NCBI GenBank assembly: GCA_938002955.1
Contig: CALLAA010000067.1
Coordinates: 1-41,183 of the forward strand
Length of the DNA stretch: 41,183 nt
DNA from: an uncultured Acidimicrobiales bacterium
GTDB lineage: Bacteria > Actinomycetota > Acidimicrobiia > Acidimicrobiales > SHLQ01
Direction: 5' to 3'
Shown here: in pieces, positions 10,971 to 37,271 of the stretch
How the letters are laid out: each line of letters begins with the position of its first letter
Numbering within the stretch: the stretch's first letter is position 1
The notes under the pieces: generated by a model
The model's input: the letters and a program-made list of their open reading frames with translations, nothing else
Database searches by the model: none
Told to the model about the DNA's origin: nothing
Made by a program: the position numbers and the translations under genes

Positions 10971-11006
10971 TGAGGTGTCAGGGGACTACGGGCCCCTGAC
11001 ACCTCA
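10971..11006 (+). terminator. Perfect 14-bp intercistronic hairpin (attenuator-like)
   Basis: The arms TGAGGTGTCAGGGG and CCCCTGACACCTCA are fully complementary around an 8-nt loop (ACTACGGG). The hairpin lies between the binding-protein stop and the first permease. There is no long T-run after it, so partial termination or mRNA 3'-end protection is more likely than complete termination. Confidence 0.65.
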
Positions 11007-15087: not shown

Positions 15088-15125
15088 ATCGATCAGTTCC
15101 GGGGTCAGACCCTCCACCTGATCGA
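15088..15125. repeat. REP-like palindrome, copy A
   Basis: Nested inverted repeat: outer arms TCGATCAG/CTGATCGA and inner arms GGGTC/GACCC around a single central A. It lies directly after the dehydratase stop, between convergent genes, and is one of seven copies in the window. Confidence 0.85.
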
Positions 15126-15144
15126 GCCGCTCCTGCCAGCCGCC

Positions 15145-15180
15145 ATCGATCAGATCCGGGGTCAGACCCTCTACCTGACC
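15145..15180. repeat. REP-like palindrome, copy B (contains the RAYT stop codon)
   Basis: Same orientation as copy A, with the inner GGGTC-A-GACCC palindrome and a degraded right outer arm (CTGACC). The transposase stop codon at 15171-15173 is inside it, so the last codons of the transposase and the repeat border coincide. Confidence 0.8.
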
Positions 15181-16133
15181 TGAGACCGTAGACGTAGCTG
15201 ATCCAAGACGGCGTCACGTAGCCGGCCTACCTCATCGCTAATGGATGAACATCGGGCACGTCGAACTGCAGCGCACAGCGCTTCATCCGAGCTGAATCCG
15301 TATCGCCTTGCGAGAGTGAACCCACGCTCGGCGGAGAGCTCTTTCGCAAGCAAGATCGCCGCCAAGCGGGCAGGGTTTGCTGGTCGGGACGACTCAACAA
15401 GCTCCTCTTGTCTCGCTCCCGTGAGCGACCTGATGAGGAACTCGATTTCCTCGATCTCGGGATGGCCGACACCTGCGGTGAGACACTCAGCGATTTCTGG
15501 ATGACGCAGGCGAAGGCTATCGACGAACGATTGGCCTCCCAGGACTCTCCCAGGGCTCAGGGGCCGTTCGAAGAATCGTTCGAGTTCGCGATCGGCGATA
15601 TGAGATTCGACGAATGTCCGGTATTCATCGGGGCAACCAAACCGCTCGAGTATGTGGCGGGTCGAGAGCCATGAGGGGCTCGCCATAAACCCGCCCGAGT
15701 AGCGATAGCTCGACCATCGGTAGTCCCGGAGGTCCTCAAAGGTGCATAGCCCCGCCGCTACTGGGTTTAGTTCGACGTATCTGGCGAGGCGTGCGAAGTA
15801 CTGATCGCTGTCGACCAAGACCGAGTGGAACCGTCCTCGGAACAGCGCTCCGTCACGGTCGTGAATTTGGTTGAAGGCTTGGGTGTACGCTCGGCCGATG
15901 TACTGCATTGTCACGCTGAGCTGCCCGTCTGGGGAGCGAACGAATACGTGGTAGTGATTGCCCACTAGTGCAAAGGCAATGAGCTCGATGCCGAAGCGGG
16001 ATACGGCCTTCTGCCAGAGCGTAAGAAACAGCTCTTGGTCGTACTTGTTCCGATACGTGTGCTGGCGTGCAGCACCGCGGTTCATTACGTGGTGGTAGGC
16101 ACCGGGAAAATCGATGCGTGGTTGACGAGCCAT
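15171..16133 (-). CDS. REP-associated tyrosine transposase (RAYT, IS200-like Y1 transposase)
   Basis: A 320-residue HUH single-strand DNA nuclease. The Y1 transposase domain occupies about residues 1-125. The metal-binding HxH is H60/H62 in GNHYHVFV, and the likely nucleophile is Y83 in GRAYTQAFN. FPGAYHHVMNRG near residue 9 is the family start. The C-terminal part (LLAKELSAERGFTLARRYG) resembles the DnaA-like helical extension of some RAYTs. AAGGGAG precedes ATG 16133. It is single-copy here, lies between REP-like palindromes in opposite orientation, and has intact catalytic residues, so it is probably active or recently so. RAYTs cut and move REP sequences rather than transposing themselves. 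Confidence 0.92.
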   Translation of the reverse strand: MARQPRIDFPGAYHHVMNRGAARQHTYRNKYDQELFLTLWQKAVSRFGIELIAFALVGNHYHVFVRSPDGQLSVTMQYIGRAYTQAFNQIHDRDGALFRGRFHSVLVDSDQYFARLARYVELNPVAAGLCTFEDLRDYRWSSYRYSGGFMASPSWLSTRHILERFGCPDEYRTFVESHIADRELERFFERPLSPGRVLGGQSFVDSLRLRHPEIAECLTAGVGHPEIEEIEFLIRSLTGARQEELVESSRPANPARLAAILLAKELSAERGFTLARRYGFSSDEALCAAVRRARCSSISDEVGRLRDAVLDQLRLRSQVR

Positions 16134-16234: not shown

Positions 16235-16385
16235 TCGATCAGTTTTGGGGTCTGACCCCGGAGTTGATCGATGGGAGCTGGCGTGATGGGCTGGATCAGT
16301 TTTGGGGTCTGACCCTGGAGTTGATCGATGGGAGCTGGCGTGATGGGCTGGATCAGTTTTGGGGTCTGACCCCGGAGTTGATCTA
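16235..16385. repeat. Three tandem REP-like palindromes (copies C, D, E), 57-bp period
   Basis: Copies at 16235-16271, 16294-16328 and 16351-16385 share GATCAGTTTTGGGGTCTGACC and an outer GTTGATC arm. The 22-bp spacers between them (TGGGAGCTGGCGTGATGG...) are identical. They are inverted relative to copies A and B on the other side of the RAYT. The stop codon of the oxidoreductase (16383-16385) lies in the last copy. Confidence 0.88.
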
Positions 16386-18510: not shown

Positions 18511-19682
18511 CCACCGATGAAAATGGCGTTCTCGCTGATGACGTGGGGGCCTCGGCCGGAAGCCCGGGTGCTCTCGCTGATGACGTGGGGACCTCGGCCG
18601 GAAGTGCCGAGAAAATGGTAGAAATCTCGTGGTTTGGGGCGCTGTGCGACGACGACTATGAGTTTCTCGGTGTTCCCGATCCGAGCTTGCAAAGCAGCTG
18701 GCCGCATTGCTCAAACATCGTCAAGACCGCTGACCGTCTCGGGTATGACAACGTGCTTTTGCCGTCGGGTTACCAGCTCGGCATGGACTCGACGTCGTTC
18801 GCTGCAGCGGTTGCAACACACACCGATCAGATCCAGTTGTTGCTCGCCGTCCGTATGGGGGAGATGTGGCTTCCGCAGCTCGCCCGACAGTTGGCGACGA
18901 TCGATCAGATGGCGAACGGCCGCCTTACGATCAACATCATCTCGAGCGACATCCCGGGAGCTCCGCTCGAATCTGAACCTCGTTACCAGCGCACTCGTGA
19001 GTGGATGACCGTTCTGCGGTCGCTATTGAATGGCGAGTCGATCGACTTTCACGGCGAGTTTGTCGATCTCGAGGTCAACCCGCCACGGATGCGCACGGTC
19101 TCAGGTACGTGCCCGCCGTTCTATTTCGGTGGGTTCAGCCCGGCTGCGAAGGACACCGCTGCCGAGCATGCCGACGTTTTCCTCACGTGGCCAGACACCG
19201 TTGCCGGGGTTGCCGAGACCGTTCGTGACATGAAGGCACAGGCCGCCGGTTACGGCCGCGAGATGAACTATGGCTTGCGTGCACACGTCATCGTCCGAGA
19301 GACCGAGGCTGAGGCACGCGAGGCTGCAACTCGTCTGCTGTCGAAGTTGGATCTTGACGAGGGAGAGAAGATTCGTCAGAAGTCCCTCGACACAGCATCG
19401 GCCGGTGTCGCCCGTCAGAACGAGCTTCGCGATGCAGCAGAGGACGATGGTTTCGTCGAGGAGAACCTGTGGACCGGTGTCGGTCGTGCTCGCAGCGGAG
19501 CGGGTGCTGCAATCGTTGGTGATCCAGATCAGGTCCTCGCCAAGCTGCGGGCGTATCAGCAGGTTGGCATCGGCGCGTTCATTCTGAGCGGCTACACCCA
19601 CGCTGCTGAAGCGGACCTCTTCGCCAAGTATGTTCTGCCGAACATCGAGCATGGCCCGCTGTATGAAGGTTCCGCGACCTAA
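18507..19682 (+). CDS. LLM-class flavin-dependent oxidoreductase (SsuD-like monooxygenase)
   Basis: A 391-residue bacterial-luciferase-like TIM-barrel enzyme using reduced FMN, closest in pattern to alkanesulfonate monooxygenase (SsuD). Visible landmarks are MVEISWFGAL at the first strand, RLTINIISSDIPGAP, the PPFYFGGFSPAAKD segment and GDPDQVLAKLRAYQQVGIGAFILSGYTH near the end. The ATG overlaps the aldo/keto reductase stop, so both are translated together. The first 36 residues hold a tandem 14-residue duplication and are not part of the fold; ATG 18615 is a plausible shorter start. The substrate is unknown. Confidence 0.88.
   Translation: MTTDENGVLADDVGASAGSPGALADDVGTSAGSAEKMVEISWFGALCDDDYEFLGVPDPSLQSSWPHCSNIVKTADRLGYDNVLLPSGYQLGMDSTSFAAAVATHTDQIQLLLAVRMGEMWLPQLARQLATIDQMANGRLTINIISSDIPGAPLESEPRYQRTREWMTVLRSLLNGESIDFHGEFVDLEVNPPRMRTVSGTCPPFYFGGFSPAAKDTAAEHADVFLTWPDTVAGVAETVRDMKAQAAGYGREMNYGLRAHVIVRETEAEAREAATRLLSKLDLDEGEKIRQKSLDTASAGVARQNELRDAAEDDGFVEENLWTGVGRARSGAGAAIVGDPDQVLAKLRAYQQVGIGAFILSGYTHAAEADLFAKYVLPNIEHGPLYEGSAT
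18531..18604 (+). repeat. In-frame tandem duplication, 42-bp period
   Basis: A 32-nt block beginning CTCGCTGATGACGTGGG occurs at 18531 and 18573 with one mismatch. It encodes LADDVGASAGS and LADDVGTSAGS in the N-terminal leader of the flavin oxidoreductase. Confidence 0.9.
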
Positions 19683-19785
19683 CTCCGCGGCCCAGAGCCG
19701 TCGGCTGACGCCTGTCATAGGGCATCGGTAAGGTCGTAGACATAGCACTTCCCCCTTGCATACAACTCAGTGAATGGAGATCACG

Positions 19786-20121
19786 ATGAACATCGTCGTG
19801 TTGCAAGGGACGTTGTCGAGTGAGCCGGTGGAGCGAACGCTCCCGTCGGGCGACAACATCATGAATTGGGAAGTCACCACGACAACGAGCGTTGGTAAGC
19901 GCTCCGTGCCCGTGCAGTGGGACGACCCTCCAAAGCGAGCGCTCGCCATTGGCGAGGGCGACGAGGTAGTTGTGCTCGGCACGATTCGTCGACGCTTCTT
20001 CCGGGCCGGTGGAGTGACGGCAAGTCGCACCGAGGTCGTTGCGTCCGCGATGGCGAAGCCGTCGCAGAAGGTCGCGGTGTCCAAGCTGCTCCTGGAAGCG
20101 CAGGATCAACTCGCCGCATAA
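19786..20121 (+). CDS. Short single-stranded DNA-binding (SSB-like) OB-fold protein
   Basis: A protein of about 111 residues with an SSB-type OB fold: MNIVVLQGTLSSEPVERTLPSGDNIMNWEVTT, then PVQWDD and GDEVVVLGTIRRRFF. GGAG is spaced 6 nt before ATG 19786, which I prefer over ATG 19774. It ends soon after the OB domain and lacks the acidic DDDIPF-type tail that ordinary SSB uses to recruit partners. It is therefore a paralogue or specialised binder rather than the housekeeping SSB. It is alone between the LLM gene and the GlcD-like gene, and the hairpin at 20136 follows it. Confidence 0.78.
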   Translation: MNIVVLQGTLSSEPVERTLPSGDNIMNWEVTTTTSVGKRSVPVQWDDPPKRALAIGEGDEVVVLGTIRRRFFRAGGVTASRTEVVASAMAKPSQKVAVSKLLLEAQDQLAA

Positions 20122-20135
20122 GCGACCGAGCACCC

Positions 20136-20173
20136 TGCCCACTACGTTCTTCCCATGGAGAACGTAGTGGGCA
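20136..20173 (+). promoter_or_regulatory. Perfect 15-bp inverted repeat enclosing the start codon of the FAD oxidase
   Basis: The arms TGCCCACTACGTTCT and AGAACGTAGTGGGCA are perfectly complementary. The 8-nt loop TCCCATGG contains the ATG at 20155-20157. No T-tract follows, so this is not an ordinary terminator. It could hide the start codon in mRNA or be an operator palindrome for a dimeric regulator. Confidence 0.8.
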
Positions 20174-21582
20174 TGCTTCGCGAACGGTTCGGTACCTCAA
20201 CGGTGCTCACCACGGATCTCGATGGCTACGAGTCGGACTGGGGTAGCAAGCATGCTGGCCCGGCGATTGCGGTGGTCCGGCCGTCGACGACGAACGAGGT
20301 GTCGATCGTGCTCGCCACGTGTGATGCCAACGGCGTTGCCGTCGTTCCTCAAGGCGGCAACACCGGACTGTGCGGTGGTTCTGTTCCGCTCGCCGACGGT
20401 CACCCAGAGGGCAAGCCGACGGTGATTCTGTCGCTGACACAGATGAACCGCATCCTGTCGATCGATGTAGATCGTGCGACGGTCACGGTGGAGGCGGGCG
20501 TGACAATCCAGGCGTTGCAGGAGGCCTGTGCAGCCGAAGGGTTGCTCTTTGCCCCTGACTGGGGTGCACGGGGTAGCGCTCAGGTTGGTGGCGGTATCAG
20601 CACCAACGCTGGCGGACTCAACGTCCTTCGTTGGGGATCGCTTCGGAGCCAGGTGTTGGGGCTGGAGGCGGTGCTTCCAGATGGCCGCGTGTACGACGGC
20701 CTGCGTGCGCTGCGCAAGGACGCAACCGGACTCGATGTCAAGCAGATGTTCATCGGTACGGAGGGGACGCTCGGTATTGTCACCGCGGCGGTGTTTGCCT
20801 TGCACCCGTTGCCGTCGACGCACCGAACCGCGTTTGTTGCGCTCTCGGGTCTCGATGCCCTGATGCCGTTCTTTACCCTCTGTCGTTCGGAAAGTGGCGG
20901 CCTTGTGAGTGCGTTCGAGTTGATGCCCGAAGATGGCATTCGTCGAGTTCGCGAGAACGCTCCGCAGGCCCAACATCCGTTTTCCGAACCGAGCGAGTGG
21001 TACGTCTTGCTCCGGCTCTCGGGTGGCGACGAAGTCGACGAAGTTCTGGCCAAGACGCTCGAGTCCGCAGCTGCGGCGGGCGTCATCACCGACGCGGTGC
21101 TGGCGGCGACTTCGGACCAGGAGCAAAATTTGTGGTTCATCCGGGACGAGGTGCCACCGCCGTTCACGTTCGATGAGTACGGCAACAAGTACAAGTTCGA
21201 CATGGCGATTCCCGTCGACCGAGTCGTTGAGTTTTTCGATGCGGCCGGTCCGCTCGTCGACTCGATCGTTGCCGGAACGAAGACGTTTGGGTTTGGCCAT
21301 GTGGGCGACGGCAACCTGCACTTCAACATGTACCCGGGACCTGACGCAGATCTCGAGGACTATCTCACCCGCGGCGAGGAACTCGTGGGTGCCATCGACG
21401 AGCTCACGTGGACGTTCGGCGGCACGATATCGGCCGAACACGGGATTGGTCAGGTGATGCGTCAGCGGCTCGCCCGTCAAAAGTCCACCGTCGAACTCGA
21501 CGTCGTACGCGCCGTGAAGTCGGCGCTCGATCCAAACAACACGATGAACCCGGGCAAAGTTATCCCTCGCCCGCAGTCGTGA
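20155..21582 (+). CDS. FAD-linked 2-hydroxyacid oxidase (GlcD / D-2-hydroxyglutarate dehydrogenase-like)
   Basis: A 475-residue flavoprotein of the VAO/GlcD family that oxidises a D-2-hydroxyacid (lactate, glycolate or 2-hydroxyglutarate type) to the 2-oxoacid. The FAD-binding PCMH domain shows VPQGGNTGLCGGSVP, GGISTNAGGLNVLRWG and GTEGTLGIVTAA. The C-terminal domain has the metal/active-site HVGDGNLHFN and EHGIGQV motifs. The length is typical. The start ATG is in the loop of a strong hairpin; ATG 20173, six codons on, is an alternative start. An aminotransferase gene follows in the same direction after 40 bp. The exact substrate is open. Confidence 0.9.
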   Translation: MENVVGMLRERFGTSTVLTTDLDGYESDWGSKHAGPAIAVVRPSTTNEVSIVLATCDANGVAVVPQGGNTGLCGGSVPLADGHPEGKPTVILSLTQMNRILSIDVDRATVTVEAGVTIQALQEACAAEGLLFAPDWGARGSAQVGGGISTNAGGLNVLRWGSLRSQVLGLEAVLPDGRVYDGLRALRKDATGLDVKQMFIGTEGTLGIVTAAVFALHPLPSTHRTAFVALSGLDALMPFFTLCRSESGGLVSAFELMPEDGIRRVRENAPQAQHPFSEPSEWYVLLRLSGGDEVDEVLAKTLESAAAAGVITDAVLAATSDQEQNLWFIRDEVPPPFTFDEYGNKYKFDMAIPVDRVVEFFDAAGPLVDSIVAGTKTFGFGHVGDGNLHFNMYPGPDADLEDYLTRGEELVGAIDELTWTFGGTISAEHGIGQVMRQRLARQKSTVELDVVRAVKSALDPNNTMNPGKVIPRPQS

Positions 21583-21622: not shown

Positions 21623-22801
21623 ATGAAACTACAGAAGCGAACGCTCGACCAACCCAATAGCCCAATCGGGGCCCACGCCCACCTGCTCGACGATGTGCCC
21701 GCAGATCGGCCGCTGCTCGACTTGTCCCAGGGAGCCCCCGGATTTGCTCCTGCCCCCGAGGTGCAGGAACGGATGGCGGCGATTGCACGACATCCCGACG
21801 GCAGCCGGTACGGCCCCATTCGTGGACTCGCGCACCTGCGCGAAGCACTGCTCGATGATCTCCGTTCGACGTATCCAGGAGACCTTTCTGTCGACGACAT
21901 CTGCATCACCGCTGGGTGCAATCAAGCGTTTGCGATGGTCGTGAGCGCTATCGCTGCGCCCGGTGACGAAGTAGTTCTGACGGTGCCGTACTACTTCAAC
22001 CACGACATGTGGCTCGGGCTCGAAGGTATCTCGGCGGTATATCTCGAGCCAGCCGATGGACTGAACCCCACGGTGGAGGAAGCTGAGGCTCTCCTCACTG
22101 ACCGGACACGAGCAATCGTGCTTATCTCGCCCGGAAACCCGACCGGCAACATCATGACCCCGGATCGGTTGGCCGAGTTCGCCGCATTCGCCGCGAGGCG
22201 CGACATTGTGTTGCTGATCGACGAGACGTATCGATCGTTCGTACCCGGTGACGGAGCGCCTCACGAGCTGTTCACCCTCAGTGCTTGGCGAGACCACGTG
22301 GTCAGCGTGCACTCGTTCTCGAAAGATCTTGCGATTCCAGGCCAACGGGTCGGGGCGATCGTTGGTTCTCCCGACCTCATTGTCGAGGCCGCCAAGCTCA
22401 TCGACTGTGTGACGATCTGCCCGCCTCGGATGGGTCAAGAAGCGGCTCATGCGGGCCTTACCGAAGCGGGCGAATGGCGGCGCTCGAAGATTGCAGACAT
22501 CGCTGCGAAGCAAGCTCGGTTCGAGTCGGTTATGTCGACCGCTCCGGGTGGATTCACCCTGCACTCGGCCGGCGCGTACTACGGCTGGGTGGAGCATCCG
22601 TTCGCCGATATCGCCACCCCCGATGTCGTCGAAGCGCTCGTGCTCGAACAAGGGATCTTGGTGATCCCAGGGACGGCGTTCATGCGCGGAGACACCAACA
22701 TGTTGCGCTTCAGCTTTGCGAACATCGAGATCGATCGGCTCGACGAGTTGCGTGAGCGGCTGTCCGACTTTGCGTCGACTCGGTCGGACCTGCAGACCTG
22801 A
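21623..22801 (+). CDS. Class I/II PLP aminotransferase
   Basis: A 392-residue fold-type I PLP enzyme of the aspartate-aminotransferase superfamily. It has LSQGAPGFAP near the N-terminus, RYGPIRGLAHLREAL, TAGCNQAFAM for PLP phosphate contacts, SPGNPTGN, and the Schiff-base lysine in SFSKDLAIPGQRVG. The C-terminal LRFSFANIEIDRL holds the substrate-carboxylate arginine. It follows the FAD oxidase and likely transaminates a 2-oxoacid from that pathway, but this is inference. Its stop abuts the stop of the convergent Ldh-type gene with no spacer. Confidence 0.9.
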   Translation: MKLQKRTLDQPNSPIGAHAHLLDDVPADRPLLDLSQGAPGFAPAPEVQERMAAIARHPDGSRYGPIRGLAHLREALLDDLRSTYPGDLSVDDICITAGCNQAFAMVVSAIAAPGDEVVLTVPYYFNHDMWLGLEGISAVYLEPADGLNPTVEEAEALLTDRTRAIVLISPGNPTGNIMTPDRLAEFAAFAARRDIVLLIDETYRSFVPGDGAPHELFTLSAWRDHVVSVHSFSKDLAIPGQRVGAIVGSPDLIVEAAKLIDCVTICPPRMGQEAAHAGLTEAGEWRRSKIADIAAKQARFESVMSTAPGGFTLHSAGAYYGWVEHPFADIATPDVVEALVLEQGILVIPGTAFMRGDTNMLRFSFANIEIDRLDELRERLSDFASTRSDLQT

Positions 22802-23785: not shown

Positions 23786-24075
23786 GGGTGGACAGTAGTC
23801 ACCAACGCGTCCAAACGCCGATTCAGCGTTTGCGCCCCCATCGGCCCGGCCGAGGGCTGGACACGACCAGGCCGACAAGGGGATTCTGAACTCAATCGTG
23901 GGTGTACTTCGCCCGCAACGACGACGTACCGACTAGATCAGAACATGCGACGAATAACGCCGCATACATATGTTGACGACGCCGCACGGTGCTGCACAGA
24001 TCAAAATGGGACTCGGTGGAGTCGTTATGGGTCAATCTCTCTCACTCCAGACGTGGACGTGCTCACAATGGCGAT
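23786..24075. other. 290-bp divergent intergenic region (Ldh / BLUF)
   Basis: Between the divergent Ldh-type and BLUF genes I see no convincing gene, repeat or strong palindrome. Short reading frames here have no family features. Promoters for both directions should lie here; an AT-richer part around 23930-23980 (AATAACGCCGCATACATATG) is the likeliest place. Confidence 0.5.
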
Positions 24076-24513
24076 GTGGGCACAACGTCTGTACCGGTCT
24101 CGCTCGTGTATTCGAGCCGAGCGACGATGCCGATGGACCGCGCCACCTTGCAAGACCTCGAGGCTCGAGCAAGCCGGGCGAATGCTGAGCGGTCGATTAC
24201 CGGCTACCTCACGTACCGCAACGAGCGGTTCACGCAGTATCTCGAAGGGTCGGCCGAGGATGTCTCCGAGACGATGTCGCGAATCCGCACCGATGCTCGC
24301 CACGGGATCTCGGTTGAAATCGAGCTCGGTACGAACCGTCGACGGTTTCCGGGCTGGTCGATGCGTCTGCTCGATCCGCTCTGGCATCCGTCGGGAAGTG
24401 TCATCGATGCAATCGAAGAACTGATCGGTCACGGACCCATGTCGCGGGCAGATCAGGACCTGGTTCGACCCGAGCTCGTGCGGCTGGTGGGCGAAGTGGC
24501 CGGAAATACGTGA
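24076..24513 (+). CDS. BLUF-domain blue-light sensor protein
   Basis: A small protein of about 145 residues consisting almost only of a BLUF (FAD blue-light sensing) domain. The conserved flavin-site residues are present: tyrosine in SLVYSSRA, asparagine in RANAERSITGYL, and glutamine in FTQYLEG. Then follow IRTDARHGISVEIE and FPGWSMRLLD, the usual fifth-strand tryptophan/methionine region. I chose GTG 24076 because the domain begins about ten residues later; upstream in-frame starts such as 23989 are also possible. An AraC-type regulator starts 10 bp after its stop, so the two are co-transcribed and may form a light-response pair. There is no fused output domain. Confidence 0.85.
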   Translation: MGTTSVPVSLVYSSRATMPMDRATLQDLEARASRANAERSITGYLTYRNERFTQYLEGSAEDVSETMSRIRTDARHGISVEIELGTNRRRFPGWSMRLLDPLWHPSGSVIDAIEELIGHGPMSRADQDLVRPELVRLVGEVAGNT

Positions 24514-37185: not shown

Positions 37186-37188
37186 CCC

Positions 37189-37225
37189 TCGATCAACTTC
37201 GGGGTCAGACCCTAAACCTGTTCGA
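37189..37225. repeat. REP-like palindrome, copy F
   Basis: This copy opens with TCGATCAACTTC and has the GGGGTC-A-GACCCT core and an outer right arm CCTGTTCGA. It follows the DUF6157-like stop by 3 bp, and is 21 kb from the RAYT. Confidence 0.85.
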
Positions 37226-37233
37226 GGGCGTCA

Positions 37234-37270
37234 TCGATCAACTTCGGGGTCTGACCCCAAACCTGATCGA
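37234..37270. repeat. REP-like palindrome, copy G
   Basis: A 37-bp copy opening TCGATCAACTTC with a perfect GGGGTC-T-GACCCC core and outer arms TCGATCA/TGATCGA. It ends 1 bp before the zinc peptidase stop, so copies F and G fill the whole gap between convergent genes and may stop transcription from both sides. Confidence 0.87.
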
Positions 37271-37271
37271 G

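Follow-up and report, generated by a model that had tools for sequence, protein, structure and literature searches.

Genes transcribed without a leader have been described in Actinobacteria and other bacteria, with a -10 element of the form TANNNT some 12 bp ahead of the start codon (PMC3160421, PMC3898074). In a GC-rich actinobacterium, structured 3' ends with few U have also been described; in the available part of that work those of Streptomyces clavuligerus are divided into classes, with three U among the 8 bases past the stem as the boundary, and the class lacking U is explained as I-shaped terminators or as trimmed Rho-dependent ends (PMC8269248). The locus that we describe here, found in a window of 41,183 nucleotides (the whole stretch of DNA that was analysed) from an uncultured Acidimicrobiales bacterium, resembles both. 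As in the leaderless genes of the available parts of PMC3160421 and PMC3898074, the element TACGTT begins 12 bp ahead of the ATG of a FAD-linked oxidase gene, the same spacing peak is seen in this genome and no SD-like word was seen; the difference from them is that the oxidase has its start codon and -10 element enclosed in a perfect inverted repeat. The likeness to the GC-rich structured 3' ends, as far as the available part of PMC8269248 describes them, is a stable GC-rich hairpin shortly past a stop codon, in this case that of an SSB-like gene. However, the hairpin at 20136-20173 overlaps the predicted promoter and the opening codons of the gene that follows. Among the titles listed by a literature search none dealt with a leaderless promoter inside the 3' hairpin of the upstream gene, although this does not prove that none exists. 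On balance, we lean towards reading the repeat as a hairpin at the 3' end of the SSB-like transcript, with a weak U tail, that would overlap the leaderless promoter predicted for the oxidase.

The inverted repeat and its neighbourhood

Three genes on the plus strand surround the repeat. The SSB-like gene (111 aa, 19786-20121, ATG at 19786 and stop codon TAA at 20119-20121) matches the Pfam family SSB (PF00436) with an E-value of 8.5e-06, its 26.2 bits barely passing the 26-bit cut-off (scan from the ATG at 19774), and relatives at E <=1e-10 were found in 29 of 40 genomes, our own counted. The oxidase (475 aa, 20155-21582, ATG at 20155-20157) is GlcD-like, with the Pfam domains PF01565 (FAD_binding_4) and PF02913 (FAD-oxidase_C), its match to the GlcD model TIGR00387 being under the equivalog cut-off. 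A PLP aminotransferase gene follows (21623-22801); in the genomes G006, G010 and G007, none of which has the oxidase at this place, it is the next gene behind the hairpin. The sole regulator among the eight window proteins scanned with Pfam is an AraC-type gene ca. 4.4 kb downstream. It adjoins a BLUF photoreceptor gene (23989-24513), and in G004 and G005 (L164 and L166) the SSB-like gene, judged by eye, also seems to be followed by BLUF-like frames. At 19745-19755, ca. 27-31 nt ahead of the SSB-like start, we found the word GCACTTCCCCC, shared by our genome, G004, G005, G006, G007 and G010, with a near version in G001 and G002. By eye it sits just past a TANNNT, near the predicted 5' end of the SSB-like mRNA, and it is possibly a leader element.

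The 5' arm of the repeat, TGCCCACTACGTTCT (20136-20150, plus strand), begins 14 nt past the SSB-like stop codon and carries the -10 element. It is followed by the 8-nt spacer TCCCATGG (20151-20158), with the centre of the dyad at 20154.5, between the predicted -1 and +1, and by the 3' arm AGAACGTAGTGGGCA (20159-20173), which encodes the residues ENVVG after the start methionine. By direct reading all 15 pairs of the arms are Watson-Crick, which confirms the perfect 15-bp inverted repeat with the oxidase ATG in its spacer that a sequence-only reading of this DNA had reported. Its remark that the repeat constrains the first codons of the enzyme also holds in our lineage, where the 3' arm encodes them. 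A further proposal, that the AUG is presented in an 8-nt loop, does not agree with the RNA fold: this adds the pairs U20151-G20158 and C20152-G20157, giving a 17-pair stem with a 4-nt loop (CCAU), and the G of the AUG is paired. The minimum free energy of the region is -54.3 kcal/mol (121 nt, z -5.5), and none of 200 shuffles was equally stable.

No perfect arm exceeded 11 in a control of 1 Mb of first-order Markov sequence (dinucleotides of our genome, loops of 3-20), in line with the earlier view that such a repeat is unlikely by chance. The real sequence, sampled over 441,183 bases (the window together with a further 400 kb of its genome), contained 13 perfect repeats with arms of at least 13 and five with arms of at least 15, the one at 20136-20173 among them. 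The repeat is beyond chance, yet long perfect repeats are no rarity in this genome. Eight of the 13 sit 3-54 nt past a stop codon (seven located by script, plus the present one, whose SSB-like gene was overlooked by the gene caller); three lie within predicted genes, one is ambiguous and one is at 208 nt. The window holds a second perfect repeat at 10971-11006, with 14-bp arms and an 8-nt spacer, 54 nt past a predicted stop codon.

The palindrome at 20136-20173 occurs as a single copy in the 3.93-Mb assembly, and the genome-wide search that had been proposed for it thus gave no further sites. Its 14-nt half-site (the arm minus its first base), with up to two mismatches, was found 27 times, its own two arms included, vs 34 times for the reversed control. 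With one copy and no excess of half-sites, a REP-like dispersed palindrome or genome-wide family was rejected. No known RNA family matched across the window at gathering thresholds. A different set of repeats, CGGGGTCWGACCCY, is located at 15100-15170, 16247-16374 and 37188-37271 of the window and flanks a Y1 transposase-like gene (15171-16133, Pfam PF01797). It has 45 strand-wise matches in the genome vs none for the reversed control, a count in which a palindromic copy may appear on both strands. Presumably these repeats and the transposase-like gene resemble a REP/RAYT-type system.

The predicted leaderless promoter of the oxidase

The predicted -10 element, TACGTT, is located at 20143-20148 on the plus strand, 6 nt ahead of the ATG at 20155, and its first T falls at the distance of ca. 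12 bp from the start codon that marks leaderless genes. In the 441-kb sample, TANNNT precedes 30 of 567 candidate in-frame ATGs at exactly this spacing, the oxidase start included. The neighbouring spacings are less frequent (N7 15, N8 8, N9 7), and the 26 remaining ones total 31, ca. 1.2 each, an enrichment of ca. 25-fold for TANNNT-N6-ATG; genes were called with a simple longest-ORF routine, here as well as in the motif scan for SD-like words and in the counts of gene ends and of hairpins after stop codons given below. Over the whole genome the pattern was found 454 times vs 319 for the reversed pattern, in agreement with the enrichment but diluted by ATGs that are not starts. The columns of TACGTT and ATG are invariant in our genome and in the four congeners where the frame starts at this point (G006, G010, G002 and G001), and G007 has TACGGT-N6-ACG at the matching place. 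A simple motif scan of our own genome found no SD-like word between -20 and -4 of the oxidase. No sigma-70 promoter with a -35 element was found in 19600-20400, by a scan whose models exclude -10-only promoters. A later oxidase start at ATG 20172 was rejected, because TACGTT-N6 fits the ATG at 20155 and the arrangement is kept in the four congeners.

From the enrichment of TANNNT-N6, the conserved TACGTT-N6-ATG and the lack of an SD-like word, we predict with high confidence that transcription of the oxidase starts at the A of the AUG at 20155, at the centre of the dyad. With this predicted start the oxidase mRNA would be devoid of the 5' arm and unable to form the hairpin. The idea that the stem buries a ribosome-binding region in the oxidase mRNA is not supported here, since the predicted message would lack the 5' arm and no SD-like word was seen in the scan. 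The sequence-only reading had also stated what would speak against a role of the hairpin, namely a transcription start mapped within or after the repeat together with arms that are not conserved. The two parts came out differently: the predicted start inside the repeat counts against that reading, and the conservation of the arms, clear in three of the five that carry TACGTT-N6-ATG, counts in its favour. What stands of that reading is a real repeat, beyond chance and partly conserved; what finds no support is its role in presenting the AUG and burying a ribosome-binding site. None of the other TANNNT-N6 starts among the 30 in the sample lies within such a repeat, the next longest perfect arm being 9 bp.

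The hairpin behind the SSB-like gene

Seen from the upstream gene, the hairpin lies 14 nt behind the SSB-like stop codon (17 bp, z -5.68), i.e., a stable hairpin close past the stop codon as expected of a structured 3' end of any class. In the 100 nt that follow the SSB-like stop codon, folding reached z < -2.5 in 12 of the 29 genomes (one frame of just 83 aa, that of G034, was retained among them), vs 6.0% of 232 random windows from the same loci. The 12 are our genome, G001, G006, G007, G010 and seven others (G005, G011, G016, G017, G018, G020 and G028), these last being from outside the neighbourhood that has the aminotransferase behind. These seven are counted among 23 genomes, the 29 less our own, G001, G002, G006, G007 and G010. 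Judged by eye, the next frame is different or converging in some of the seven, and in G016 and G017 it converges on the hairpin. Because hairpins are found after the SSB-like gene with different or converging neighbours, we tie the hairpin to the 3' end of the SSB-like gene rather than to the oxidase. The value of -2.5 was not reached behind the SSB-like gene in 17 of the 29 genomes, and G002 and G003 showed no excess of folding there (z 0.23 and 1.38). In our genome, z < -2.5 was found at 52 of 385 gene ends (13.5%) and in 9 of 335 windows inside genes, and the excess of hairpins at the SSB-like end is partly a general property of gene ends.

The tail of the hairpin is poor in U. The 12 bases past the repeat (TGCTTCGCGAAC) contain three T; ten other perfect hairpins located after stop codons in our genome have a mean of 5.1 T per 12 vs 2.3 expected by composition. 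A terminator scan did not report the hairpin at 20136-20173, and a canonical intrinsic terminator (at least five T in 8 bases) was rejected in view of this weak U tail. The first 8 bases past the stem, TGCTTCGC, have exactly three T, which leaves the hairpin out of the class lacking U (fewer than three) and on the border, just inside the U-rich class, as the available part of PMC8269248 draws that line. In G006 and G010 the matching bases contain about one U. For G006, G010, G001 and G018 the stem search returned outer helices spanning the whole region, and the stem lengths and tails that it gave for them were excluded.

Conservation in related genomes

The genomes G006 and G010 lack an oxidase in the interval from the SSB-like gene to the aminotransferase, but the hairpin is still present there, immediately past the SSB-like gene. 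Both hairpins are homologous to ours, although longer-looped. The outer arm is identical in the three genomes, save for a T-A pair that is C-G in G010, and at position 7 past the first T of TACGTT our genome has T-A and both sisters G-C. The paired changes are located at -7 and +7, counted from this first T. The check on the conservation of the arms that had been suggested has thus come out in favor of pairing, with a homologous hairpin and paired changes in two sister genomes. G007 has a long, diverged hairpin in nearly the same register, with different letters in its arms. The homologous 3' arm is missing in G001 and G002, the latter keeping TACGTT-N6-ATG without the hairpin. MAFFT alignments placed the 3' arms out of register and were not used for statistics on paired changes. 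A pattern search for the element (up to two mismatches, 20 genomes) gave matches free of mismatches in our genome, G006 and G010 only, and six other matches. In a search of contigs for close relatives, among the best 80 of 520 loci, only two exceeded 50% identity; these appear to be the oxidase contigs of G002 and G001 and add no relatives.

The oxidase adjoins the SSB-like gene in our genome, G001 and G002 and is absent from this place in G006, G010 and G007. In a tree of the seven genomes our own groups with G006 and G010 (support 99; 100 for G006 with G010), the deeper branches having supports of 59 in the joint tree and of 70 and 85 in that of the aminotransferase. Because of this grouping, loss of the oxidase in the ancestor of G006 and G010 would be the simplest history. 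In these two genomes, which lack the oxidase here, short frames begin at TACGTT-N6-ATG, MQISWDERVGRCACA in G006 (L160, 1404-1451, minus strand) and MQISCDEVGGRPCA in G010 (L161, 1386-1430, minus strand). Their ends overlap the region of the GTG start of the aminotransferase, an arrangement that suggests translational coupling between the short frame and the aminotransferase.

Possible roles of the repeat

Several explanations can be weighed against a 3'-end hairpin. That a dimeric regulator bound to a dyad centred at the start site blocks RNA polymerase seems to us very unlikely. The geometry would suit it, with the dyad centre at 20154.5 between the predicted -1 and +1 and an arm spanning the -10 element. 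However, a fixed-spacing operator keeps half-site and spacing in orthologues, and here the distance from CCCACT to AGTGGG is 22 bp in our genome, 34 bp in G006 and 31 bp in G010, the arm is absent from G002 and G001, and its letters differ in G007. The variable spacing disfavours the high-affinity operator that had been put forward, at least in its fixed-spacing form, as do the lack of a second genome copy or of an excess of half-sites and the position of the only regulator found, the AraC-type gene mentioned above. An accident of replication, in which a template switch copied the promoter-side arm to the coding side, or made an older imperfect hairpin perfect, leaving a repeat without a function of its own, is an improbable alternative. 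Template switching has been reported both to generate hairpins and to make them perfect (PMC8794818), and the likeness to the RNA hairpins made in this way, in the available part of that source, is that the arms are perfect in one lineage and imperfect in its sisters, where G006 leaves one A unpaired and G010 has an internal loop. Here, unlike in those hairpins, a promoter constrains one arm and the switch event is itself a deduction. Template switching may account for the perfect arms of our genome but hardly for the persistence of a stable hairpin in G006, G010 and, in diverged form, G007, which would be unexpected for a neutral accident.

We also give little chance to a translational switch, by which the hairpin in read-through SSB-like RNA would shut in the oxidase AUG and make its translation depend on a signal opening the stem. 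The AUG is indeed enclosed by the 17-bp stem, and the paired changes at -7 and +7 fit. Pair partners were taken from folds, which are biased towards pairing, and shuffles were therefore used as the test: the energy of the duplex between the promoter side and the coding side surpassed that with shuffled downstream sequence in our genome (p 0.001), G006 (0.001) and G010 (0.002), three related and not independent cases, as well as in G007 (0.028) and G001 (0.04), with G002 at 0.54. A duplex p of 0.05 or less was reached by just three of the 30 leaderless starts of the sample, the oxidase start included, and such pairing is no general feature of leaderless starts. On the other hand, a second measure, how many bases of the 5' arm pair with the downstream side, reached significance in none of the six genomes (p 0.08-0.43). 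The predicted leaderless promoter inside the 5' arm would deprive the main oxidase mRNA of this arm, and the upstream region of the oxidase in our genome offers no SD-like word. Besides, G006 and G010 retain the hairpin with short frames and no oxidase downstream, and G002 retains the start without the hairpin. It is more likely that the hairpin is part of the end of the SSB-like message than a switch acting on the oxidase. A combination of both roles, in which the DNA would act as a leaderless promoter centred on the dyad and the RNA as an SSB-like 3' hairpin locking the oxidase AUG, only the RNA started at the promoter being translatable, we regard as quite doubtful.

With the hairpin as the 3' end of the SSB-like transcript, the reading towards which we lean, the SSB-like RNA would fold the repeat into a very stable hairpin 14 nt past its stop codon. 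This would mark or protect the 3' end, either as a terminator-like structure with a weak U tail or as a stem-loop that halts 3'-5' trimming. As DNA, the 5' arm would supply the -10 element of the leaderless promoter, whose transcripts would begin with the A of the oxidase AUG, in the centre of the dyad. An oxidase message without the 5' arm would escape regulation by the hairpin, an insulation that, like the 3' end and the transcription start, we infer from the letters of the genomes. Transcripts that run on past the end of the SSB-like gene would have the oxidase AUG shut in the hairpin, and there it would be poorly translated. That the SSB-like protein binds the opened strand of the hairpin, as DNA or RNA, and controls the end of its own message and the promoter behind it is pure conjecture.

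A 33-nt intergenic gap may host a 3'-end hairpin and a leaderless promoter on the same bases. A hairpin around a start codon would tell little about translation if the message is leaderless, and in lineages rich in leaderless genes sites of this kind are good tests of how the end of one transcript and the start of the next are kept apart.
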